A stretch of 64,000 nucleotides of DNA from Sphingopyxis sp. CCNWLW2. GTDB taxonomy: Bacteria; Pseudomonadota; Alphaproteobacteria; Sphingomonadales; Sphingomonadaceae. The position numbers and the translations under genes are program-made. Positions 42,561-54,731 of the stretch are shown here, piece by piece (positions within the stretch are counted from its first letter, which is position 1; every line of letters begins with the position of its first letter). The stretch is taken from positions 995,001 through 1,059,000 of the forward strand of contig NZ_JBAWKJ010000001.1 of the NCBI RefSeq assembly GCF_037095755.1, given 5' to 3'. The notes beneath the pieces are model-generated. The model worked only from the letters and a program-made list of their open reading frames with translations, did no database searches and was not told where the DNA came from.

Positions 42561-45500
42561 TCAGTTCGCGTAAAGCAACGGCGGCCGCCAGGCATTCTGG
42601 TCGACCTCGTCGCTGACCTTGTAGACCATGCCCTTGCTGTTCAGGAACAGCTTCTCCATCTCGGGCCGGGTGAACGGCCGCGAGCCGACACGGCCGAACA
42701 CCGCCATCTGGCCGCCGGTCTCGTCGACTGCACGGTCGCGGTCGAGTCCCTTCGACAGTGCGAGCGCGGGCGACGGCGTCTTCGCCCAGGCGATCAGCTC
42801 GGGGGTCGGTTTCGGCGAGAAGCCATAGAGACCCGGATTCTCAGGACTGGTCAGCTGAAGCACCTTGATCCCGTTCCGGCCGTCGGCGACATAACCGAAC
42901 AGCGAGGCATTGGTCGACGCGACGATGACGTCCTCGGCATCGTTCAGGAGGCCGCCGAAGGTCAGCCCCGGCCAGACGATCGGCGCCGCAGGGCGTGTCA
43001 CATCGACGATGACGAGCCCGTCGGCCTTCGCCGCGACATACATGTACGTCCGCGCCAGGTAGATTTTCCGCGCGTTGGCGAGCCGCACCGTGCCCGACGG
43101 CACCGCGACCGGCTGCGCGAGATTGGTGACGTCGAACAGCTTCACGCCCTCGGCATCGGTGACCCAGAGGTAACGGAACTGCACCGCGCTCGCGCGCGCA
43201 TCGGTCAGCGGCAGCTGCGCGGTGACCTTGGGCTGCAGCGGGGTCGAGAGGTCGAGCACGACGAGCCCCGCGTCGGTGGTGACATAGGCGATGCTGCCCG
43301 CGAGCGTCACATGCCGCGCGCCCGCCAGCACATTGCCTTCGTTCCACGTCAGCGCGCGCTTGAACTTGTTGTTGCGGAATTCAGCGTCGGCCAATGTGTC
43401 GATGTCGACCAGAACCAGCCCTTCGACGCTGTCGGTGATCACCGCATAGCGGTAGATATCGTGCATCACTTGTTCGTGGTTTTCGGGGAAGTTCTTCACG
43501 ATATTCTCGTTGCGCGACACGCTGACCGGCTGCGTCGTCGCGAGCGCCATGCAGGTCGCATTCTTCGTCTTAACATGCGTGTCGTGCCCGAGCGCCGAGA
43601 AGGGCGCGCGGATGATGCGTTCGGAGAAGCCCTTGTTGCCGATCGACGCGACGTCATAGACGCGGAAGCCGCCCTTGCCCTCGGCAACGAACATATATTC
43701 GCCGCGCTGTTGCAGGCAGTTCACGCGGCCGCTCGTCCCCTGGACGATATTGGCGAATTCCTCGAGCGCATGCGTTTCGCCCGAACCCTTTTTGTCGAAG
43801 ATCTTGCCGCGCACCCAGTTCTTCAGCTCGCGCCCATTCTGTTCGACGTGCAGCTTCCAATAGTCGGGATAGGCATATTTCTGGAGGTAGCTGCCGATCA
43901 CCGCCTGCGGTTCGTCCCATTCAGTGACGCGGGTCGCCTGGAAGCTGTTTTCCTGACCCGACCAGACGTTCAATCCGACGAAATTGACGAAGTTGGTGCC
44001 GAGCAGATTGAGCTGCGCCATGATCGCATTATTGTCGTCGGCGGCCGACAGGTGGCAGTCGCTGCACTGCTTGGTTTCGGAGCGGCGGACGGTGTGCGGG
44101 AAGTGCGGCGCAAACGCCTGGCTCGAATAGCCTGCCGACGAAATCGGTGGTTGCTGCACATAGATTCGCTCGCGGTTGATGTTGGTCGACGACAGCACCA
44201 GCGCCGAGGTCGAGCGGACGGGCGTGATGATGCCGCGCGCTTCGCCGTTCGGGCCGGGCTCGCCGGGCTTGGTGAGCTGATGCCGGCCAAGCTGGAACAT
44301 TTCGTCGCGCGCCACCTGCGGGTTGTAGGTCGCGAAGTTACGCGTCTCCTCGCCCTCGAAATGGTGCATCTTGGTCTTCCAGTTCGCCTCGATCGGCAAA
44401 TGGCAGCCGCCGCAGCTCGTCGTCCACGACAGGTGACAGGTGAAGCAGGTCATCTTGTCGTCGCCGTGCGCGCGGTCCTCGCGTCCAACCCCCGGACCCC
44501 ATTCGAACTTGCCGTCCTCCGAGCCTGACCGCGCCATCAGCTTCGCGCGCGCCGCTTTCGCGTTGAAATGCGGGCCCGGGGTCACCGCCTGCTTGACGAG
44601 GCTGACCTGCCATTCGAGCTTCGGATCGACGATCGAACGCTGGATGAGGCCGATCACTTCGGCATCGTCATTATATTGGAATTCGAAACGGCGCCGCCCG
44701 TCGGGGTTGCGCAGCAGCGCCAGATTATTGCCCTGCGGCCGCGCCGCGACGTTCGAGGTCAGCAGGTTGGGGAAGGCATCGGCGGTGCCGTGGCAGTCCT
44801 TGCAGCTGATCTCGACCGCGTTCGCGACCTCGCCCTGGATATAGCCATTGCCGTGGCTGTCCTGCGCGAAGTGGCAGTCGGCGCACTGCATGCCCTTTTC
44901 GGCGTGGATGTCCATCATATGGACCGCCTTGCCGGGGTTCAGCCCGGGCGGCACGAACTTGCCCTCGATGCCCGGACGTCCCGGATCGGCGCTCGACAGG
45001 CACAGGTCGCGCTCCTTCGGATCGGTGTAATGGCTGCAGCTCTTGCGCCATTTTTCCGGGTCCTTCGGATCGATGATGTTCGCGGTGTCGGTGCCGTAGG
45101 TCGCCATATTGCCGTCGGCGGTCAGCAGATTGCCGCTCCGGTCGCGCTTGAAGATGCCGCGGAAGTTCCAGCCATGGCCGTGATAGTCGGCGAACTGCGT
45201 ATCCTTGTTGCTGTCGTTGACGTCATAGACGTCGCGCAGAAACTCGACATCGGCCCACAGCCCGCGCGTCGCCGCACCCTCGGGGTTACGTTCGAGCACC
45301 TGATGCACCTCGGCCGCGGTGGGATAGCGCTGCTGTTTATATTTCTTCTGATACTCCTCGTCGCTCATCCCCGGCGGGCGCGGCGCAGTGTTGTCCGGCC
45401 CCGGCCACATCTGCGGCGCGTCCGATTCATAGTCCCACATCGTGTAGCCGAGGTACGAATTCAGGAAGATGTTCGGCTGATGCATGTGGCACGACATGCA

Positions 45501-46850
45501 CTGCGAGGTCGGGATCGCGCGCGTGAAGGCGTGGCTGATCGGGTGGCCCGATTCACCGCGCGCCGGCGATCCGGGGCGTGCCGGAACCTCGGGGTCGGCC
45601 GGGTCGATCAGCGCGCCGTGACCGCCACCGGCCTGATGACCATCCTCGGCGCCATGCGCATCGCCGCCATGTCCGCCCTCGGGCTTCCATTTTTTCTCCG
45701 CAATCGTCGGGTCGACCGTCGCCGTTTCGCCGTCGCGGCCGAATTTGGCGTAGGCCAGGCTGTGCCGCGGCTCGCGGTCGTTGGCGTAGATAACGTGACA
45801 GCCCGAGCAGCCCGAATGGCGATAGTCGCCGGGCTGGTCGTTCGTCCCCATGAACCATGACAGCGGGTCGTTGAGGCGCGTCTTGTGGATGTTGAGCACG
45901 GGGATCGAGACACGCAGGCCCGTGCCAGGACCGCGGTTCGATTGCTTGAGATCGGGACGGCCCGGTTCCTCGAGCCGCTGGATGCTGCCAGTCGGGTTCG
46001 GCAGGCCGATTTCGGGGAATTGCGTGTTGATGTTGCGCCCGCCGCGCTCGAATACGCGGAACACGTCGCCCGGCGGCAGCACGCTCCAGCGCGGCAGCGG
46101 ATACATTTTGGCGAGCGCGCCGCGCTTTTTCTCTTCGTCGGTCAATATCTTGTCGAAACCGAAGCTTGGCTTGCACGCCTCCTTATATTCCTCGGCGGTC
46201 AGCCGCGACGAGGGCGACAGGATGCAAGCGGGTTCGCCGGTGCGCGTATAAGCCTCTCCGAAGATGTAATTCTTGTAGGGAACGATGCCGTTGTTATACG
46301 CCGCGCCGCCCCACAGCATCGCGCCGGTCGACATCATCGAACGCTCGGTCGCCTCGATCACCTCGAGGTGGCACGCGCCGCACGCCTCGCGCGCGACGCG
46401 ATAGTCGCTGGGGTTCACGAAACGGATGAATTCGGGGGATTCCTTGTTGAGCAAAGTATAGCTGCGCTGCGGGTTCGCAGAACTGTCGTGCCAGGCGCCG
46501 GGCAAGGTCGGCTGCGGATGCGCGAGCTTCATCACCGCCTTGTTCGTCGGATGCTGATAGCCAAGGCTCGGCGTACCGCGCTGGCTCGCGTCGCCGCCAT
46601 GGCAATCGGTACAGCCGAGCTTCACCGCGGGGGTCGCGTGCATCGACGGCTGGTCGGTGCGCGTGTGGCAGCTGTAACAGCCGTCCGACTTGGCGGTTAC
46701 ATCGGCATCGCTTTGCTCGCGCGGCGCCGGCGGCGTGAAGCGATATTCGATCTTGAGCGGCTTTTCCTCCTCGGCTGCGCGGACAACGCTCGCACCGAAG
46801 GCCGCGCACATCGTCAAAAAGGCGAGCAGGGCGAAGAGTTTGCGCGTCAC
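42561..46850 (-). CDS. Giant decaheme c-type cytochrome with C-terminal beta-propeller
   Basis: A 1429-residue exported protein; the signal peptide ends near VVRAAEE. Ten CxxCH heme sites lie at about residues 58, 80, 157, 348, 451, 656, 683, 802, 813 and 929. A Gly/His-rich stretch at about 390-412 may bind metal. From about residue 1045 to 1330 there are repeated blades of LVIVD/YVTN style (VAEGKGGFRVYDVAS, YVTTDAGLVVLDLS, YVAAKADGLVIVDVTRP). No membrane anchor is visible. It is the last gene of a four-gene operon with a barrel, a lipoprotein and a pentaheme cytochrome. I do not recognise a named homologue. Electron transfer at the cell envelope is the likeliest role. Confidence 0.85.
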   Translation of the reverse strand: MTRKLFALLAFLTMCAAFGASVVRAAEEEKPLKIEYRFTPPAPREQSDADVTAKSDGCYSCHTRTDQPSMHATPAVKLGCTDCHGGDASQRGTPSLGYQHPTNKAVMKLAHPQPTLPGAWHDSSANPQRSYTLLNKESPEFIRFVNPSDYRVAREACGACHLEVIEATERSMMSTGAMLWGGAAYNNGIVPYKNYIFGEAYTRTGEPACILSPSSRLTAEEYKEACKPSFGFDKILTDEEKKRGALAKMYPLPRWSVLPPGDVFRVFERGGRNINTQFPEIGLPNPTGSIQRLEEPGRPDLKQSNRGPGTGLRVSIPVLNIHKTRLNDPLSWFMGTNDQPGDYRHSGCSGCHVIYANDREPRHSLAYAKFGRDGETATVDPTIAEKKWKPEGGHGGDAHGAEDGHQAGGGHGALIDPADPEVPARPGSPARGESGHPISHAFTRAIPTSQCMSCHMHQPNIFLNSYLGYTMWDYESDAPQMWPGPDNTAPRPPGMSDEEYQKKYKQQRYPTAAEVHQVLERNPEGAATRGLWADVEFLRDVYDVNDSNKDTQFADYHGHGWNFRGIFKRDRSGNLLTADGNMATYGTDTANIIDPKDPEKWRKSCSHYTDPKERDLCLSSADPGRPGIEGKFVPPGLNPGKAVHMMDIHAEKGMQCADCHFAQDSHGNGYIQGEVANAVEISCKDCHGTADAFPNLLTSNVAARPQGNNLALLRNPDGRRRFEFQYNDDAEVIGLIQRSIVDPKLEWQVSLVKQAVTPGPHFNAKAARAKLMARSGSEDGKFEWGPGVGREDRAHGDDKMTCFTCHLSWTTSCGGCHLPIEANWKTKMHHFEGEETRNFATYNPQVARDEMFQLGRHQLTKPGEPGPNGEARGIITPVRSTSALVLSSTNINRERIYVQQPPISSAGYSSQAFAPHFPHTVRRSETKQCSDCHLSAADDNNAIMAQLNLLGTNFVNFVGLNVWSGQENSFQATRVTEWDEPQAVIGSYLQKYAYPDYWKLHVEQNGRELKNWVRGKIFDKKGSGETHALEEFANIVQGTSGRVNCLQQRGEYMFVAEGKGGFRVYDVASIGNKGFSERIIRAPFSALGHDTHVKTKNATCMALATTQPVSVSRNENIVKNFPENHEQVMHDIYRYAVITDSVEGLVLVDIDTLADAEFRNNKFKRALTWNEGNVLAGARHVTLAGSIAYVTTDAGLVVLDLSTPLQPKVTAQLPLTDARASAVQFRYLWVTDAEGVKLFDVTNLAQPVAVPSGTVRLANARKIYLARTYMYVAAKADGLVIVDVTRPAAPIVWPGLTFGGLLNDAEDVIVASTNASLFGYVADGRNGIKVLQLTSPENPGLYGFSPKPTPELIAWAKTPSPALALSKGLDRDRAVDETGGQMAVFGRVGSRPFTRPEMEKLFLNSKGMVYKVSDEVDQNAWRPPLLYAN

Positions 46851-46852
46851 GA

Positions 46853-48784
46853 TCAGAAACTCACGATCACATTGGCGAGGATCGACACATAGGCGTCGTT
46901 CTTCTGCTTGTTGTCGAACAGATCCTTGAACCCCTTGCCGGGCAGCAGCACCGCGCCGCTAAGGCGCCCGACGATATTCTGCGTCGCCTTCGGCCGCCAG
47001 ATCGTCGCGACCGAAAGGTCGAATCCGATATCCTTGGGGATCGACCCTTCGGTGCGCAGCGCCTGCAGGCTCGACGTATTTTCGAACCACAGATGGTTGA
47101 AATTGGTGCTGACGCGAAATTCGGGGGTCAGGTCAAAATCGGCACCCGCGCCGACGAAGACCGTGCCCGGATTGTTGAAATTCGACTGCCCCTCTTCCTT
47201 CGACGAGCGGAGCGAGTTCAAGATGCCGTTGCGCCCGCTAATCGCGATGACGCGCCCGCCGCCCGCGAAGGGGATCGTCTGGCGAATCCAGTAGCTGGTG
47301 TCGGCGCCGCCGAAGATCGGATTTTCGAAGATCGCGTCGTAGCCGCCTTCGGTGTTGTTATACGGATCGCCGTCGCCGGTCGCGTAGAGCCCCGAGAGGC
47401 GGAAGCGCATCCAGTCATGGTCGTAGCTCAGCTCGACCGCCCCGAAACCCGCGCGGATTTCGGCGGGCTTGCTCGTGAAGAAGCTGTTCCGGTCCTCGCC
47501 GAGCGCCGCATAGAAGCTCGCGGTGACGTTGATCCGGCCGATCCGGCCATCGGCGCTGTAGCCCAGATAGACGACGTCATATTCGCGCCCGCGCAGGTCG
47601 CCGAGCAGCGCCGGCCGCACCGGAAAGCCGTTGTGGTCGATCTGCACGTCATTCTTTTCGCGGTTCATATTGTACGTCACGCTGACCTGGCTGGTCAGCC
47701 CGACGACCGGGAAATCCTGCCGATAGAGATTGCCCGTGAAGATGAAATCGCTGCGCGGGGTCTGGGTGATGTCGTTGAGCCCCGAGTTGGTGTCCTTTTC
47801 GAGCCGCCAGAAGGCCGCGAGATTATACTGGAAGCGATTGTTGTCGCGGTTGCCGAACAGGCGGATGCCGAGCTGGCTGTCGTTGAACAGGAAACCGCGG
47901 AAGTCGCTCTGGAACGGCTGGATGCCGAGGCGGATCGAATAGAAATCATAGCGGTCGGACGTGTTGCCGAGATGCTTGTCGACGAAAAGCTCCTGCACGC
48001 CGAGGAAGCTGTCATAACGATGGCTCGCCTTCGACGGGCGCACGTCGAGCACGCGCCGTTCGGGCACGTCGACATAATTGGCCTGATAGGCGAGCGTGAC
48101 GCGATATTCGATGTCGGGCGGCTTGAACGCGGTCGAGCCCTTGATCAGCGCCGCGCCCGCGATGAAGGTTTGCGCGAAGACGAAGCTGCGGTCCTTGCCG
48201 AAAACGTCGAGGCTGCCCGGCCGCTCGGTCGTCTGGACGCCGACGGGGATCGGGAAGGTGCGCGGTTCGAACACCGTGTCGGACACCGCATTGGCGACGA
48301 TGAACCAGTCGTCGCCCTTGATCGGCAGCCATTTGACCTTGCTGCGATCGATCGCCCGGTCGCCCTTGTAGGTGTTCTGGTTATAGGGGTCGAACCAGCG
48401 TTCCTTGACCACGCCCAATGTTTCGATGAGACGCCAGCGGTCGGGGACCGGGAGTTGATCCTCCATCCCCGGAAAGGCTTGCGGCGGCGGTGGGCGCAGC
48501 GCGCCGACATTGTCCTGGCTGAGCGCATCAGGGAGATCGGGGCGATACCCAGGGCGGCGGCGGCCCTCGATGATCTCGGTAATCGGGTCGTCCTTGACCA
48601 CCTCCTGCCAGTCGACGGGCGGCGGCGGCGGGATCAGCTCTTCGACGGGCTGCTCGGCGGGGGCGGCGTCGCCCGCGACCGGGGGCCCTTCGGGCGCGGG
48701 CGGCGGCGGCGTGACATCGGCCCCCGGCGCGCCCTGCGCCGCGAGCGTCGCGATGATCGGCCAAAGGCTGCCCCCCGTCATCAT
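46853..48784 (-). CDS. Outer-membrane beta-barrel partner of the multiheme cytochromes
   Basis: A 643-residue protein. The N-terminus is weakly signal-like (LWPIIATLAAQGAPGA), then comes a proline-rich linker (PPPPAPEGPP and IPPPPP) to about residue 55. The rest alternates amphipathic strands with aromatic girdles (FQYNLAAFWRLEKDTN, FRLSGLYATGDGD, EFRVSTNFNHLWFENTSS) and ends in NVIVSF, with a terminal Phe typical of outer-membrane barrels. I do not see MtrB/PioB motifs. Gaps of 2-3 bases on both sides place it in the cytochrome operon. It could be a conduit or a porin for the cytochrome substrate. Confidence 0.7.
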   Translation of the reverse strand: MMTGGSLWPIIATLAAQGAPGADVTPPPPAPEGPPVAGDAAPAEQPVEELIPPPPPVDWQEVVKDDPITEIIEGRRRPGYRPDLPDALSQDNVGALRPPPPQAFPGMEDQLPVPDRWRLIETLGVVKERWFDPYNQNTYKGDRAIDRSKVKWLPIKGDDWFIVANAVSDTVFEPRTFPIPVGVQTTERPGSLDVFGKDRSFVFAQTFIAGAALIKGSTAFKPPDIEYRVTLAYQANYVDVPERRVLDVRPSKASHRYDSFLGVQELFVDKHLGNTSDRYDFYSIRLGIQPFQSDFRGFLFNDSQLGIRLFGNRDNNRFQYNLAAFWRLEKDTNSGLNDITQTPRSDFIFTGNLYRQDFPVVGLTSQVSVTYNMNREKNDVQIDHNGFPVRPALLGDLRGREYDVVYLGYSADGRIGRINVTASFYAALGEDRNSFFTSKPAEIRAGFGAVELSYDHDWMRFRLSGLYATGDGDPYNNTEGGYDAIFENPIFGGADTSYWIRQTIPFAGGGRVIAISGRNGILNSLRSSKEEGQSNFNNPGTVFVGAGADFDLTPEFRVSTNFNHLWFENTSSLQALRTEGSIPKDIGFDLSVATIWRPKATQNIVGRLSGAVLLPGKGFKDLFDNKQKNDAYVSILANVIVSF

Positions 48785-48787
48785 CGC

Positions 48788-50761
48788 CTATAGCCCGTCG
48801 CAGACATTCTGGTTCGCCGTGTCGAGGAACGGGGCGAACGGGCAGCTGATGTAACGGAGACGCACTCCGGCGCCGACGGTAACGACAACCGTATCCGAAC
48901 GGATCGCGGCCGGCGCATTGCCGATGCCGCCGACGCGCGCACCGCCATTATGCGCACCGAGGAAGCTGATCATGTCGTCCTGGTCGATACCGTCGCCCGA
49001 CACCCCGATCGCGCCGACCAGCTGATTACCACGATAGATGGGGACCGAGCCGGGGAAGATCTGGATGCCGTTCTGCAGCCGGTTCTGCCCCGCCGCGACG
49101 TCGGGCAGAGTCGTGCAGCGCGCTGGTGTGTCGGTCGGGCTGGCGCCCGAGACGAAACCGAGGTGTGCGCCGAGATTGCCGATGATCAGCGCCGATTGCA
49201 GCCCGGTCGAAAAGGGATTGAACTGCGCGATCGGGCGCGACAGCGGCCCTTGCGGGCGGCCAACCTCGCCATCCGGGAAATAGGGTCGCGCGAGATTGCC
49301 GACCGCGCGGTCGGCATAGGCGATGTTGCCGGTGAGCGCCGCGGGGCTGTTCAGGAAGGTGCGTGTTGCGGTGACGAACTGGCGCACGTCGGCGCTGGCG
49401 TTGGCGCCGAGTTCCGCACCCGCTTGCGCGCCCGAGAAGAAAGCGGCGGTGCGAGCTTTTTGCAAGGACACGTCGGTGCCGAAGATCGGCGCGTCGGGCG
49501 AGCGTACGATGCCGAGCACCGATCCATGCGTATCGACGATACTGATCGTCACCTGCGCGCGGCTGTCGAGCGGCCGGCGGATTTGCGCGCGCGCGCGGCT
49601 CATCACCGTGAACGCTTCCTCGAGCACCGCGCGCGCCTCGGCCTGCGTCAGCGGCGCGCTGTTCGTCGCGCCGTCGGTGCCCGCGCGCAGCGGATAGCGG
49701 TTGGCGCCGCTGCCGTCGGTCAGGACGAACGCGTCGCGGTTCGAAAATTCGGCCGGCGTCGAAGCGCGGATGCCCGAGGCCTCGCTGCCATAAGCGATCC
49801 CCGCGGTCACCGCGGCATTGGCATAGCCGATCACCGCGACGAGATTGCCCGCGGCGCCGTTGAGGCTGGCAAAGCTTGCGCCGCCGCTCGACATCACCCC
49901 GGCAAAGGTCGCATCCGAAAAGCGCAGGCTCGTCCCGTCGACGGTGATCTTGTCGGCCGTGATCGTCGAGGGCGCCTCAAACCCGCGCGTGCCGGCGAGC
50001 GCGATGAATTCCTCGGGATCATTGTCGATATCGAGGATGTTGGCATCGCTGCCATAGACTCCGTCGCCCATCACCCCGATGCCGCCGACGAGCACGCCAT
50101 TTTTGTAGAGCGGCAATCCACCCGGATCGGCGGCGAGGCCGAGCGGCGAGCGTTTGGGGCCGATCAGCGCCGCCGCGCCCGGCGCACCGAAACGCGCCGA
50201 GAGGTCGCTGCACGGCAACTGGCTGAACTGCACCCCGAACAACGGCCCGCTTTCAAGCCCGGCCGTAACGCCCGGAGCGGGCGGGAAATGTTCCTGCACG
50301 ATCTGGCTCGCGGTGCGGGTCGAGAAAGCGTTGCCCCCGCTCGAGAGGTACGCGCCGGTCACCGCCTTGGCGATCGCGCCGCCCTCGGCGGGGAAGGGAA
50401 CATTCTGCGCGTCGATATTCACGCCATTGGGCGCGGGCGCGGTGGTCGCGGTCGCGCGCGCGCCGGTCATGCGAAAGACGCCGAGGACATTGCCGACGCG
50501 GTCGGTCACCGCGATCACCGAAGGAAGCCCGCGCGCCTGCGCTTCCGATATCGCCTGCGCAAGCACGCGCTCGACGTCGGCCGTGGTCAGCGCTTCGGCG
50601 GCGGGCGGGGTATAGACCGTCGTCGGCGTGGGTGTCGGTGTGGGCGTGGGTGTCGGGGTTGGCGTGCCGCCACCGCCGCCTCCACCCCCGCACGAAGTGA
50701 GCAGCAACGCGCCCATCGCGGCAAAGGCGGCCGAACGGAAAAGATGCGTTCTGCTTTGCAT
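48788..50761 (-). CDS. Lipoprotein with two HbpS/GlcG-like domains
   Basis: A 657-residue lipoprotein with lipobox LLTSC, then an octa-Gly run and a (TP)n linker as a surface-type spacer. Two related HbpS/GlcG (DUF336-type) domains follow. The first has VERVLAQAISEAQARG, VTDRVGNVLGVFRM and GGIGVMGDGVYGSD; the second has ARAVLEEAFTVMSRAR, VDTHGSVLGIVRS and GAIGVSGDGIDQDD. HbpS binds heme, and GlcG-type proteins are otherwise poorly understood. Gene spacing is 3-4 bases on both sides. ATG 50761 is chosen because the signal and lipobox then fit. A tandem lipid-anchored form is unusual. Confidence 0.75.
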   Translation of the reverse strand: MQSRTHLFRSAAFAAMGALLLTSCGGGGGGGGTPTPTPTPTPTPTPTTVYTPPAAEALTTADVERVLAQAISEAQARGLPSVIAVTDRVGNVLGVFRMTGARATATTAPAPNGVNIDAQNVPFPAEGGAIAKAVTGAYLSSGGNAFSTRTASQIVQEHFPPAPGVTAGLESGPLFGVQFSQLPCSDLSARFGAPGAAALIGPKRSPLGLAADPGGLPLYKNGVLVGGIGVMGDGVYGSDANILDIDNDPEEFIALAGTRGFEAPSTITADKITVDGTSLRFSDATFAGVMSSGGASFASLNGAAGNLVAVIGYANAAVTAGIAYGSEASGIRASTPAEFSNRDAFVLTDGSGANRYPLRAGTDGATNSAPLTQAEARAVLEEAFTVMSRARAQIRRPLDSRAQVTISIVDTHGSVLGIVRSPDAPIFGTDVSLQKARTAAFFSGAQAGAELGANASADVRQFVTATRTFLNSPAALTGNIAYADRAVGNLARPYFPDGEVGRPQGPLSRPIAQFNPFSTGLQSALIIGNLGAHLGFVSGASPTDTPARCTTLPDVAAGQNRLQNGIQIFPGSVPIYRGNQLVGAIGVSGDGIDQDDMISFLGAHNGGARVGGIGNAPAAIRSDTVVVTVGAGVRLRYISCPFAPFLDTANQNVCDGL

Positions 50762-50765
50762 GATC

Positions 50766-52229
50766 TTACCGCAGCGCCCCGATCGCGCGCACCGCGCTGC
50801 CGAACGACGCCTGGAATTCGGACGGCTTGTAGGCGTTGGGGTCCTTGACCGAAGCATAAGCGCGGTCGATGTCGCCGCGGATACCCGCCGCAGCGCCGAC
50901 GGTGACGCGGCCCGACGACACCATCGCGTTGAGCAAGGTGTCGACGCCCATCACGGCCTGCTGCGATCCCGAATAGTCGGTGTAGCGATCGCTGATCGCC
51001 TTTGCCGAAATCGCGTCGACCATCGCAAAGGCGTCGGCGCCCGAGAAATTACGCGAGGCGAACGCACTCTTGAGCGCCGCGACCGTCTGCGAGAGCTGCG
51101 CCGCCGCGGCGACCACGCTTTGCCGGTCGGTCGCCATCGCCTTGTGGAACGCCGTGGCGCGCGCCGCGAGCTGGTCGGCGAGCGCCGGCGACGCCATGCG
51201 CGCCGCGGCGGCGAGCATGATCAGATTCTCGTCATTATAGGGCGGCATGCCCTCGGGGATCGCACGGCCGGGATTGTCGAGCCCGGTGCGCACGGGTTTC
51301 GCCTGATCGAAGATGCGGCGGTGGCAGCTGTGGCAGTCGAGGAAGTAAAATTCGGGGAACATGCCCTCGGTCCCGCGCCGCGTCTGGAACAGCGCGAGGC
51401 TGCGTTCGATCGCGGTCGCCTGTCCGACCGCCCACATCTGAACGTGGTCGGTACGCCGGTTCGGGGCGCCGAACTTGCGCCAGCCATAGTCGGCATCTTC
51501 CTGATGATGCGCCTGCAGCGACGAAAAGAGGTCGAGCTCGAAGGCGATGCGCGGGTGACCCGCGGCCATGATGCGGTGCGTGACGAACTGGCCGTCGGCG
51601 GCCGAACCGAAGTGGCAATCGACGCACACGCCCGCGCGGACGACCGGATCCTCGAGCTTTTTCAGCCCCGCCGACAGGTTAGCGAGATGCTTCTGGCGCA
51701 TTTCGCGGTCGGGATCGGCGTTCGTTCCGACGCCCGCATAATGGCTCGCGAGCCAGCCGCCCGCGGGGCCGTGGCACGATTCACAGCCAACGCCGTCTTC
51801 GGCCGGGACCGCGCGCGCCGTGCCCGCGGTGCTGTGGCAGCCAAGGCACATCTGCGCCTTCGCGGGGTCGCCGATACCCAGATTGCGCGCGATGAACTGG
51901 CTGCGGTTGTTGCTGAGCACCGCCCACGCGCGGCTGTGCGCGCCGCCGGGGGTCGAGGGCTCCTGCCATTTCATCAGCTCGTCCTGGCGGACGACGGTGC
52001 CGTCGCCCTCCATCCGGCCGTGACAGGTTGAGCCCGCGCACGAGGCGACGCCGGTGTAACGCGCGCCGCTTTCCCCCTGCGAGCGGGCAGGGGGAGCGAA
52101 GACGAACGCCGCAATGGTGAGCGCGAGCAGCATCGCCGCCAAGGCGGCCAACGCCGCGCGCGTGGGCACAAGGGCGGCAAACGCCGCCCAAGGCCGATCG
52201 CCGCGCTCCTTTCCAGCGTGCGTCATCAT
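50766..52229 (-). CDS. Membrane-anchored or secreted pentaheme cytochrome c, c554-like
   Basis: A 487-residue protein. An N-terminal hydrophobic helix (residues 24-47) may be an uncleaved anchor or a signal peptide. Hemes attach at CLGCH (128), CESCH (149), CVDCH (202) and CHSCH (299); the first site is CAGSTCH (64), a CX4CH motif. TGVASCAGSTCHGRM resembles the start of cytochrome c554-family proteins. The C-terminal 180 residues are helical without hemes. It is the first gene of the four-gene operon and could accept electrons from the inner membrane. ATG 52229 or 52226; longer in-frame starts lack signal character. gdhA ends 49 bases upstream. Confidence 0.8.
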   Translation of the reverse strand: MMTHAGKERGDRPWAAFAALVPTRAALAALAAMLLALTIAAFVFAPPARSQGESGARYTGVASCAGSTCHGRMEGDGTVVRQDELMKWQEPSTPGGAHSRAWAVLSNNRSQFIARNLGIGDPAKAQMCLGCHSTAGTARAVPAEDGVGCESCHGPAGGWLASHYAGVGTNADPDREMRQKHLANLSAGLKKLEDPVVRAGVCVDCHFGSAADGQFVTHRIMAAGHPRIAFELDLFSSLQAHHQEDADYGWRKFGAPNRRTDHVQMWAVGQATAIERSLALFQTRRGTEGMFPEFYFLDCHSCHRRIFDQAKPVRTGLDNPGRAIPEGMPPYNDENLIMLAAAARMASPALADQLAARATAFHKAMATDRQSVVAAAAQLSQTVAALKSAFASRNFSGADAFAMVDAISAKAISDRYTDYSGSQQAVMGVDTLLNAMVSSGRVTVGAAAGIRGDIDRAYASVKDPNAYKPSEFQASFGSAVRAIGALR

Positions 52230-52278: not shown

Positions 52279-53634
52279 TTACACCACCCCGAAAGCCAGC
52301 ATCGCGTCGGCAACCTTCTTGAATCCTGCGATATTGGCGCCCTTCACATAATCGATATAGCCGTCGCCCGCATCGCCATAGGTCAGGCAGCTTTTGTGGA
52401 TGCCGTCCATGATGTCCTTGAGCATCTGCTGTAACTCGCCTTCGCTCCAGGCGCGGCGCCCACTGTTCTGGCTCATTTCGAGTCCCGACACCGCGACGCC
52501 GCCGGCATTCGCCGCCTTGCCCGGCGCAAACATGATCTTCGCATCCTTGAAGACATGCACGCCCTCAAGGTTCGTCGGCATGTTGGCGCCTTCGCTGACC
52601 GCGATGCAGCCATTCTTGACCAGCGTCTTGGCGTCGTCACCGAGCAGCTCATTCTGCGTCGCGCACGGCAAAGCAACATCGCACTTCACGCCCCACGGCG
52701 TCTTGCCCGGCGTGAAGCTCGCGCCCTTAAATTCATCACAATATTCCTCGATCCGGCCGCGGCGGTGCGTCTTGTGCGCCTTCACCCAGTCGATCTTTTC
52801 CTGCGTGATGCCGTCGGGGTCGTGGATGAAGCCGCCCGAATCCGAGAGCGTCAGCACCTTGCCGCCAAGCTGGACGATCTTTTCGGCCGCGTGCGTCGCG
52901 ACATTGCCCGATCCCGAGATGACCGCAGTCTTGCCGACCAGATCCTGCCCCTTCGCGGCGAGCATGTTGGCGAGGAAGTAAACCGCCCCATAACCCGTCG
53001 CCTCGGTACGGATCAGCGAGCCGCCCCATTCGAGCCCCTTGCCGGTCAGCACCCCGGTAAATTCGTTGGTGATCCGCTTATACTGGCCGAACATGAAGCC
53101 GATCTCGCGCCCGCCGACGCCGATGTCGCCCGCGGGCACGTCGATGTCGGCGCCGATGTGGCGATAGAGTTCGGTCATGAAGCTCTGGCAGAAGCGCATG
53201 ATCTCGCGCACGCTCTTGCCCTTGGGATTGAAGTTCGAACCGCCCTTGCCGCCGCCCATCGGCAGCCCGGTCAGCGCATTCTTGAACGTCTGTTCGAACG
53301 CGAGGAATTTGAGCACGCTTTCGGTAACGCTCGGGTGGAAGCGGATGCCGCCCTTGTACGGGCCGATCGCGTTGTTGTTCTGGACGCGCCAGCCGCGCTG
53401 GACGCGGATATTGCCGTTGTCGTCTTCCCAGCAGACGCGGAAGGACACGACGCGGTCAGGCTCGGCGATCCGCCGCAATATCTGCTGCGCGTGATATTCT
53501 TCCTTGTCGGCGATGAAATCGAAGATGTCCTCGGACACTTCCTGCACCGCCTGGACGAACTCGGGCTGACCCGGGTTGCGCTTTTTCACGCCTTCCATGA
53601 ACGTCGAAAAGTCGACGTGATCCGAAACTGCCAT
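52279..53634 (-). CDS. gdhA: NADP-type glutamate dehydrogenase
   Basis: A 451-residue hexameric GDH that makes glutamate from 2-oxoglutarate and ammonium. It carries LPMGGGKGGSNFNPKGKS with the catalytic lysines, PAGDIGVGGREIGFMFGQY, AVISGSGNVATHAAEKIVQL (nucleotide fold) and SEGANMPTNLEGVHVF. The length and motifs match the small E. coli GdhA type. ATG 53634 (MAVSDHVDF) follows GGGAGGGG. In-frame extension to 53790 looks non-coding. Confidence 0.93.
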   Translation of the reverse strand: MAVSDHVDFSTFMEGVKKRNPGQPEFVQAVQEVSEDIFDFIADKEEYHAQQILRRIAEPDRVVSFRVCWEDDNGNIRVQRGWRVQNNNAIGPYKGGIRFHPSVTESVLKFLAFEQTFKNALTGLPMGGGKGGSNFNPKGKSVREIMRFCQSFMTELYRHIGADIDVPAGDIGVGGREIGFMFGQYKRITNEFTGVLTGKGLEWGGSLIRTEATGYGAVYFLANMLAAKGQDLVGKTAVISGSGNVATHAAEKIVQLGGKVLTLSDSGGFIHDPDGITQEKIDWVKAHKTHRRGRIEEYCDEFKGASFTPGKTPWGVKCDVALPCATQNELLGDDAKTLVKNGCIAVSEGANMPTNLEGVHVFKDAKIMFAPGKAANAGGVAVSGLEMSQNSGRRAWSEGELQQMLKDIMDGIHKSCLTYGDAGDGYIDYVKGANIAGFKKVADAMLAFGVV

Positions 53635-53792: not shown

Positions 53793-54731
53793 ATGAGCGA
53801 GAGCAACAAGATGGCCGGCGGCATGACGAGCACCAACCGGACGATATTGATCGCCGCCTTCATTCTGCTGGCCGCCGCCATCGGCTATGCGATCTGGCGC
53901 GATTCCGGGCCCTCGGTCTCCGATCCCGTGGCGCAGGCCACGGGCGCGCCGTCCGACCAACTCGCCGAGCTGGAAGCGCGCACGAGGCGCGAGCCGAACA
54001 GCGCCGAAGCGTGGACCGCGCTCGGCGCGGCGCGATTCGACATGAGCGATTTCGCGGGTGCGGCCGGGGCGTATGAGAAAGCGGTCGCGCTTTCGCCCGA
54101 ATCGGCGGGTCTTTGGTCGGCGCTGGGCGAGGCGCGGGTGATGGGAAGCGACAGCGACCCGATGCCCGCCGCCGGACTCGAAGCGTTCAACAAGGCGATC
54201 GCGCTCGACGCCAAGGACCCGCGCGCGCGCTATTTCCTCGCGGTGAAGAAGGATATCGGCGGCGATCACAAGGGCGCGATCGAAGACTGGTTCGCGCTGC
54301 TCGCCGACACGCCGCAGGGGGCGCCATGGGAGGCCGACCTCCGCCGCACGATCGAGCAGGTCGGGCAGATCCACAAGATCGACGTCGCGGCACGGCTCGC
54401 GAGCACAGCGGCACGCCCGCTGACCGCCGATGAAATGCCGGTTGCCGCACGCGCGATCCCGGGGCCGAGCCGCGCCGATATGGAAGCGGCGTCGCAGCTC
54501 CCCAAGGGACAGCAGGACCAGATGATACAGGGCATGGTGAGCGGGCTCGAGGCGAAGCTCAAGGCCAATCCCGCCGACGTCGACCGCTGGATCATGCTGA
54601 TGCGTAGCCGCATGACGCTCGGCGAAACCGCAAAGGCCGCGCAGGCGCTAAAGGATGGCATTGCAGTCAACCCGGCGGCGGCGGGACGATTGAAGGCGCA
54701 GGCGCAGCTGCTCGGCGTGCCGGGTGCGTAA
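53793..54731 (+). CDS. Membrane-anchored TPR protein, CcmH/NrfG-like
   Basis: A 312-residue protein with an N-terminal transmembrane helix (TILIAAFILLAAAIGYAIW) and periplasmic TPR units: NSAEAWTALGAARFDMSDFA, GAYEKAVALSPESAGLWSAL and ARYFLAVKKDIGGDHKGAIE. This matches the C-terminal (CcmI/NrfG) part of cytochrome c assembly proteins, which hold apocytochromes. The usual ccm genes are not nearby, so it is either a stand-alone assembly factor or a general TPR protein. AGAGGGG precedes ATG 53793. It is divergent from gdhA, beside the multiheme operon. Confidence 0.7.
   Translation: MSESNKMAGGMTSTNRTILIAAFILLAAAIGYAIWRDSGPSVSDPVAQATGAPSDQLAELEARTRREPNSAEAWTALGAARFDMSDFAGAAGAYEKAVALSPESAGLWSALGEARVMGSDSDPMPAAGLEAFNKAIALDAKDPRARYFLAVKKDIGGDHKGAIEDWFALLADTPQGAPWEADLRRTIEQVGQIHKIDVAARLASTAARPLTADEMPVAARAIPGPSRADMEAASQLPKGQQDQMIQGMVSGLEAKLKANPADVDRWIMLMRSRMTLGETAKAAQALKDGIAVNPAAAGRLKAQAQLLGVPGA

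Follow-up and report, generated by a model that had tools for sequence, protein, structure and literature searches.

A conserved multiheme cytochrome operon of Sphingopyxis as the probable outer half of a two-part electron pathway

What does an operon for multiheme cytochromes do in an aerobic sphingomonad, and is it complete? The question is raised by four adjacent genes, here A, B, C and D, of Sphingopyxis sp. CCNWLW2 (assembly GCF_037095755.1, contig NZ_JBAWKJ010000001.1, positions 995,001–1,059,000; the window is this whole stretch of 64,000 nucleotides). As a sequence-only reading had described, all four lie on the minus strand, at 52229–42561, with gaps of 4, 3 and 2 bases, and encode proteins with five and ten heme sites. 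That reading considered the operon by itself. A-B-C-D is probably just one half, the outer one, of a conserved route for electrons that links the inside of the cell with its outer membrane in aerobic sphingomonads and some marine bacteria. The genes and their products are as follows.

50766..52229, minus strand: A, pentaheme c-type cytochrome with a hydrophobic N-terminal segment and a cytochrome c554-like region (PF13435 2.9e-9; E 0.003)
48788..50761, minus strand: B, lipoprotein with HbpS-like domains (PF03928, E 2.8e-24; 657 residues)
46853..48784, minus strand: C, predicted outer-membrane beta-barrel (643 residues; AlphaFold model, no Pfam or NCBIfam family)
42561..46850, minus strand: D, ten CXXCH motifs (residues 58–933) followed by an LVIVD-repeat region (1429 residues, GTG start)
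42711..43739, minus strand: C-terminal LVIVD repeats of D, approximately residues 1038–1380, a presumed beta-propeller (PF08309 match)

Genomes were sampled as 199 Sphingomonadaceae (searched for D, E and G, the last two introduced below), 99 Sphingomonadaceae (A, B and C) and 398 across the phylum. D was found in 72 of the 199 Sphingomonadaceae genomes and is not rare there, where such systems had been thought unexpected. Co-occurrence was one of the checks proposed in the sequence-only reading, with homologues routinely found apart as the outcome against it. The result does not refute that reading: A, B and C were each present in the same 34 of 99 genomes, exactly those with D. Locus counts refer to the best 80 of 336 matched stretches, a selection that gives close relatives too much weight; the three top-ranked D loci are Sphingopyxis and 97–98% identical. 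The order test took in the 68 loci in which the sequence upstream of D exceeds 6.5 kb. Order and strand of A>B>C>D were kept in 65 of these, so the grouping is more than chance. The three exceptions are L035, which contains Ns, L044, a metagenome assembly in which C is broken, and L075.

In many loci outside Sphingopyxis a second gene set lies convergent to D, comprising MPE (a phosphodiesterase-like gene), E, F and G, then a TPR gene. In 24 of 80 loci the four genes MPE, E, F and G are found together in this convergent position, and 21 of these loci have all of A–D. In the genome of the window this inner half lies on contig C1 at approximately 272.7–278.9 kb, some 760 kb from D. E is a membrane-anchored decaheme protein with a transmembrane segment at 140–163 and hemes from residue 196; these are compact (approximately 39 residues each), and ten sites are kept in 27/27. 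Its N-terminus is weakly FHA-like, the window genome's own E matching only MU2_FHA (17.0 of 29.2 bits). F contains two HX13H pairs. Its homologues have two WX3HX13H in 25 of 26 and SGXXG in 25 of 26, with both in 24; F of the window's genome and F of Colwellia also carry the WX3HX13H pair and SGXXG. G, directly upstream of F, combines an FAD/NAD(P) flavoprotein domain with a pair of cyclic-nucleotide domains and with four 4Fe-4S motifs that hold 16 conserved cysteines, and matches Fer4_11 (PF13247) at 39.7 bits (cut-off 26.2). The cassette Glu and Arg of cyclic-nucleotide site 1 are present in 26/26 rows, and those of site 2 in 24/26 and 26/26, the window genome's own protein being counted twice in these rows. 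MPE has a metallophosphoesterase motif in 30/30, and its top NCBIfam matches are two phosphodiesterases of cyclic nucleotides, SpdA at 139 of 400 bits and PRK11148 at 77 of 225.

E and G occurred in 71 of the 72 D genomes, and full-length E or G in none of the 127 without D; a standalone operon was rejected on this result. The corresponding Fisher p of approximately 6e-54 ignores relatedness. E gave 75 matches, from which G201, G205 and G252 were left out (E 7e-4 to 9e-4), as was G233 (56 aligned residues, 54% identical, genome 70% complete). G matches were found in 191 genomes; the 71 with long matches were kept and the others match single domains. The sole D genome without E or G (G081) is 67% complete. 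The two halves lie within 15 kb of each other in 35 of 71 genomes, more than 15 kb apart on one contig in 18 (18 kb to over 2 Mb) and on different contigs in 18, some of which contig ends may explain. Of 25 genomes from the same genus, 23 have D and E and two have neither.

The halves are joined in other lineages. In the gammaproteobacterium Colwellia echini, G-F-E-B-C-D-A are contiguous on one strand, and a genome from another alphaproteobacterial family (G616) has the run G, F, E, A, a glutamate dehydrogenase homologue (54% identical), B, C, D. Across the phylum D gave 22 matches, 11 counted as full and 11 local; all 11 genomes with full-length D have G. D relatives among the matches listed (120 of 7996) include Colwellia, Thalassotalea, Halioglobus, Haliea, Kineobactrum, Oceanicoccus and Spongiibacteraceae. 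At least 80% of D was found on thirteen plasmids, twelve from Sphingobium, also with G, and one from Sphingopyxis indica. On a Sphingobium herbicidovorans plasmid the products of A to D are labelled 'cytochrome c family protein', 'heme-binding protein', 'hypothetical protein' and 'multiheme c-type cytochrome'.

A (487 residues) is probably a periplasmic carrier; its five heme sites, four CXXCH and one CX4CH, are kept as 4+1 in 76/76. B begins with a lipobox-like stretch, LLTSC; the pattern occurs in 71 of 79 B homologues, and several of the other eight end at a contig edge. The last residue of C is F or Y in 104 of 104 homologues. C matched nothing in Pfam and NCBIfam at E up to 1, and its Colwellia homologue gave one weak porin match (18.3 of 250 bits). 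The AlphaFold model of C is of modest confidence (mean predicted local distance difference test score, pLDDT, 62) and places approximately 18 strands after a conserved N-terminal extension, in a modelled fold of AlgE/OprD type; because of this predicted fold, C may be a substrate channel. The earlier call of a lipoprotein and a barrel agrees with the LLTSC stretch and the terminal F or Y, the barrel itself being a model.

D is probably the terminal component. The previously noted fusion of a decaheme domain and a propeller holds for the ten CXXCH and the LVIVD region (PF08309, E 2.2e-11), the propeller fold itself being presumed. Ten heme sites, over approximately 1090 residues, are found in 103 of 106 copies, some genomes being counted twice, and in 78 of 79 among loci L001–L080. 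Nine CXXCH were counted in the D copies of L004, L087 and L098, the last of which is incomplete. Fifteen further histidines are kept in at least 95% of 77 sequences, which would be enough for bis-histidine ligation of ten hemes.

For cofactors, electron order and direction, gating, the site of D and electrons leaving the cell, we infer the following from these genes. NAD(P)H would reduce the FAD and four 4Fe-4S clusters of G in the cytoplasm. G would pass electrons to two b hemes of F in the inner membrane, and F to the ten hemes of membrane-anchored E. E would reduce A in the periplasm, and A would reduce D at the outer membrane, together with C and B. D would then deliver electrons to an acceptor at or beyond the outer membrane. 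G would be gated by a cyclic nucleotide that a cyclase, linked in some loci, makes and MPE removes. We give about an even chance to a trans-envelope NAD(P)H-linked chain with A-B-C-D as outer-membrane half and G-F-E plus MPE, encoded elsewhere in the genome, as inner-membrane half. A more specific form is tentative and somewhat doubtful. It holds that the pathway spans the whole envelope of aerobic bacteria, is driven by NAD(P)H, and has its own cyclase and phosphodiesterase for the cyclic nucleotide that gates it. The redox and second-messenger state of the cytoplasm would directly switch delivery to a surface decaheme-propeller protein, bypassing quinones.

Several observations weigh against this pathway. 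C is modelled as an 18-strand barrel like AlgE/OprD channels, not obviously fit for a heme wire. D is heme-sparse, at approximately 88 residues per heme, and its structure model is poor (pLDDT 53), which weakens its assigned site and role. Both points also count against the outer-membrane conduit suggested before. L075 truly has C-D without A-B alongside. The G233 genome has the E fragment described above without D and could be a true exception. The phosphodiesterase scores of MPE are below cut-off. A CHASE2 protein with a nucleotide-cyclase domain was strongly matched (52–55% identity) in only 4 of 93 loci and weakly (33–34% over approximately 215 residues) in four more. Finally, 4 of the 15 phylum-sample genomes with full-length G lack D. 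One of them (G404) has E, B and C before its contig stops, and the other three (G255, G287 and G403) have G with F and E and no A-D nearby; the G287 protein carries a Magnetococcales name. G-F-E is therefore not tied to A-D everywhere and is a wider module. A second G copy in G255 (L152) has neither E nor F beside it among the chosen open reading frames. At L151 and L154, G and F are fused in one protein of approximately 1120 residues near a decaheme E, with no A-D nearby, and the fused protein of L151 has a Magnetococcales name.

Is this a known pathway? The nearest known kind is PCC4, compared here by its published description and alike in most of its layout; genome context was the basis on which both PCC3 and PCC4 were put forward (He et al. 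2017, PMC5566968). As far as the consulted parts of that description go, PCC4 (Subgroup II) has a porin together with pentaheme and decaheme cytochromes. Its inner-membrane protein carries two WX3HX13H and SGXXG, as in F, and upstream of it lies a PF13247 Fe-S gene, as in G; a case of the Fe-S and inner-membrane genes annotated as one is also given. The same parts give PCC4 three periplasmic cytochromes with 4, 5 and 10 hemes, whereas the proteins here have 5 (A), 10 (D) and 10 (E). Counted by CXXCH alone, A has four sites and a PCC4-type five-site cytochrome is then missing; in ten scanned stretches at least three CXXCH were found only in A, D and E or parts of them. These parts of the PCC4 description (PMC5566968) mention no LVIVD fusion, no HbpS-like lipoprotein, no cyclic-nucleotide domains and no phosphodiesterase-like gene. 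Filing the system as PCC4 was rejected on the 4/5/10 heme set. The sequence-only reading could not assign the operon to a named pathway; the related class PCC4 had already been proposed from genomes.

PCC3 resembles the system in its inner-membrane motifs, like those of F, and differs in its cytochromes, whose median heme number is 34 for the extracellular and 21 for the periplasmic ones, and, in the consulted parts of its description, by the absence of a G-type protein (PMC5566968). The same source notes PCC3 in an Erythrobacter, so sphingomonads are not wholly new to such proposals. The window's genome has a separate PCC3-like cluster (L135 6602–11719; contig C1 approximately 1296.6–1301.7 kb) with an inner-membrane protein (two WX3HX13H, SGXXG), 21-CXXCH and 5-CXXCH cytochromes and a porin-like protein, adjoining a thioredoxin-reductase-like gene.

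MtrCAB, MtoAB and PioAB share the arrangement of cytochrome, barrel and surface lipoprotein at the level of how they work; here F and G stand in place of a CymA-type quinol dehydrogenase. None of A, C, D and E scored above cut-off against Mtr/Mto/Pio family models. The MtrA/DmsE-type decaheme model TIGR03508 gave 14.4 bits for A and 17.9 for E (cut-off 192.2), with D not listed. For the OmcA/MtrC type, PF22113 gave 12.7 of 30 bits for D, and TIGR03507 gave 11.7 of 209.3 for A, with D not listed. No MtrB-type porin was recognized, C being without a family at E up to 1 in Pfam and NCBIfam, which we take to hold an MtrB model. A Cyc2-type heme site fused to a barrel was looked for in C and its heme motif was not found. 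Geobacter extHIJKLMNOPQS has, in the consulted parts of PMC5877670, a porin, several multiheme cytochromes and a membrane cytochrome b, and also Rieske, rhodanese and cytochrome b proteins that set it apart. D is locally similar to ExtM, at 68.8 bits against an equivalog cut-off of 800. Identity with Mtr/Mto/Pio, Ext or Cyc2 was rejected on family models and motifs. Of the earlier alternatives, an analogous but unrelated conduit or a heme/metal redox system, what is supported is a dedicated, conserved multiheme redox system that family scans do not place in Mtr. No description of the A–G gene set in sphingomonads was found among the papers listed by the searches or in passages of PMC8805035, PMC11475568, PMC5877670 and PMC12016527, and 'Sphing' is absent from the main texts of PMC8805035, PMC11475568, PMC5566968 and PMC12016527.

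If the chain is NAD(P)H-linked, it could also end on D in the periplasm, with no current across the outer membrane and C as a channel admitting a small acceptor such as an oxyanion, metal complex or organic compound. We consider such a periplasmic reductase unlikely, though it draws on several features. The modelled C is closest to AlgE and OprD-type channels, the sparse hemes make D more enzyme-like than wire-like, the top NCBIfam match of D is ExtM, from a selenite/tellurite cluster and far below cut-off, and D has weak local similarity to the nitrite reductase NrfA (E 0.08). It fits less well with C never being found without A, B and D (0/99 genomes), and giant two-partner-secretion-like genes upstream of A in 7 of 68 loci hint at the cell surface.

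The chain could instead run inward and take up electrons from outside the cell, with Fe(II) or Mn(II) as examples of a donor; this has been suggested for PCC3/PCC4, and PCC4 is described in iron oxidisers in the consulted parts of PMC5566968. F has the motifs of the PCC3/PCC4 inner-membrane protein, and fused G-F relatives among the matches listed are named Gallionella, Sideroxydans, Rhodocyclaceae and Magnetococcales, but this naming rests on 120 of 4057 matches, few with a name. The cytoplasmic end of the chain is a pyridine-nucleotide flavoprotein, and reduction of NAD(P)+ by Fe(II) or Mn(II) is uphill; electron uptake is rated improbable. Least credible, and very improbable, is acquisition of heme or iron by reduction or capture at the surface, for which the HbpS-like domains would make B a heme binder. 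Twenty-five covalent hemes would be a high price, and among the annotations of the plasmid stretches viewed there is neither a TonB-dependent receptor nor a heme oxygenase, no dedicated search having been made.

Two genes upstream of A in the window recur as neighbours of the system.

52279..53634, minus strand: NADP-specific glutamate dehydrogenase, a recurrent neighbour and only a candidate member of the system
53793..54731, plus strand: TPR protein with a CcmH/CycH TPR domain (PF23914, 6.1e-18; NrfG-like below cut-off, 53.8 of 306 bits)

The TPR protein is probably an accessory of cytochrome c maturation; its homologue adjoins G in other sphingomonads and in the window's genome stayed near A-D. 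The glutamate dehydrogenase gene ends 49 bp upstream of A on the same strand, with no terminator-like site in the gap. In 41 of 80 loci it sits no more than 2.5 kb from a core gene, the arrangement varying between loci. Among queried neighbours within 3.2 kb upstream of A it is the nearest in 35 of 68 loci, which are mostly Sphingopyxis and so not independent. The others are aldehyde dehydrogenase (11), a giant secreted-protein-like gene (7), a small hypothetical gene that follows the cyclase (3), TPR (2), acetolactate synthase (1) and none (9). Acetolactate synthase occurs in 62 of 72 genomes with D versus 6 of 127 without (86 genomes matched, 68 kept at 72% identity or more); with aldehyde dehydrogenase it travels upstream of A at L045 49–3131 and similar loci. 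One CHASE2-cyclase lies upstream of the second locus of the window's genome, with CHAT, two-partner-secretion transporter and exoprotein genes. Genes of these four kinds, the exoprotein being a giant one, are likewise linked to the system at L157 1005–15950 and L160 6951–18001, and L157 also holds a CRP-like regulator. In Colwellia echini (L120 474–6721), genes for a TPR-containing protein, a FecR-domain protein, a large cadherin/propeller lipoprotein-like protein and a beta-lactamase-fold protein lie downstream of A.

Even in genomes that divide its genes between two loci, the proposed NAD(P)H-linked chain can be delimited by its phylogenetic profile. Compared with PCC3/PCC4 it would add testable chemistry: entry of electrons from NAD(P)H, switching by a cyclic nucleotide, and a partner that resembles a phosphodiesterase. 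About a third of the sphingomonads sampled have the system, as do various marine gammaproteobacteria. If the proposal is true, culturable aerobic sphingomonads and common marine bacteria would carry a regulated electron outlet, or inlet, whose genes are now annotated as hypothetical or as unplaced cytochromes.

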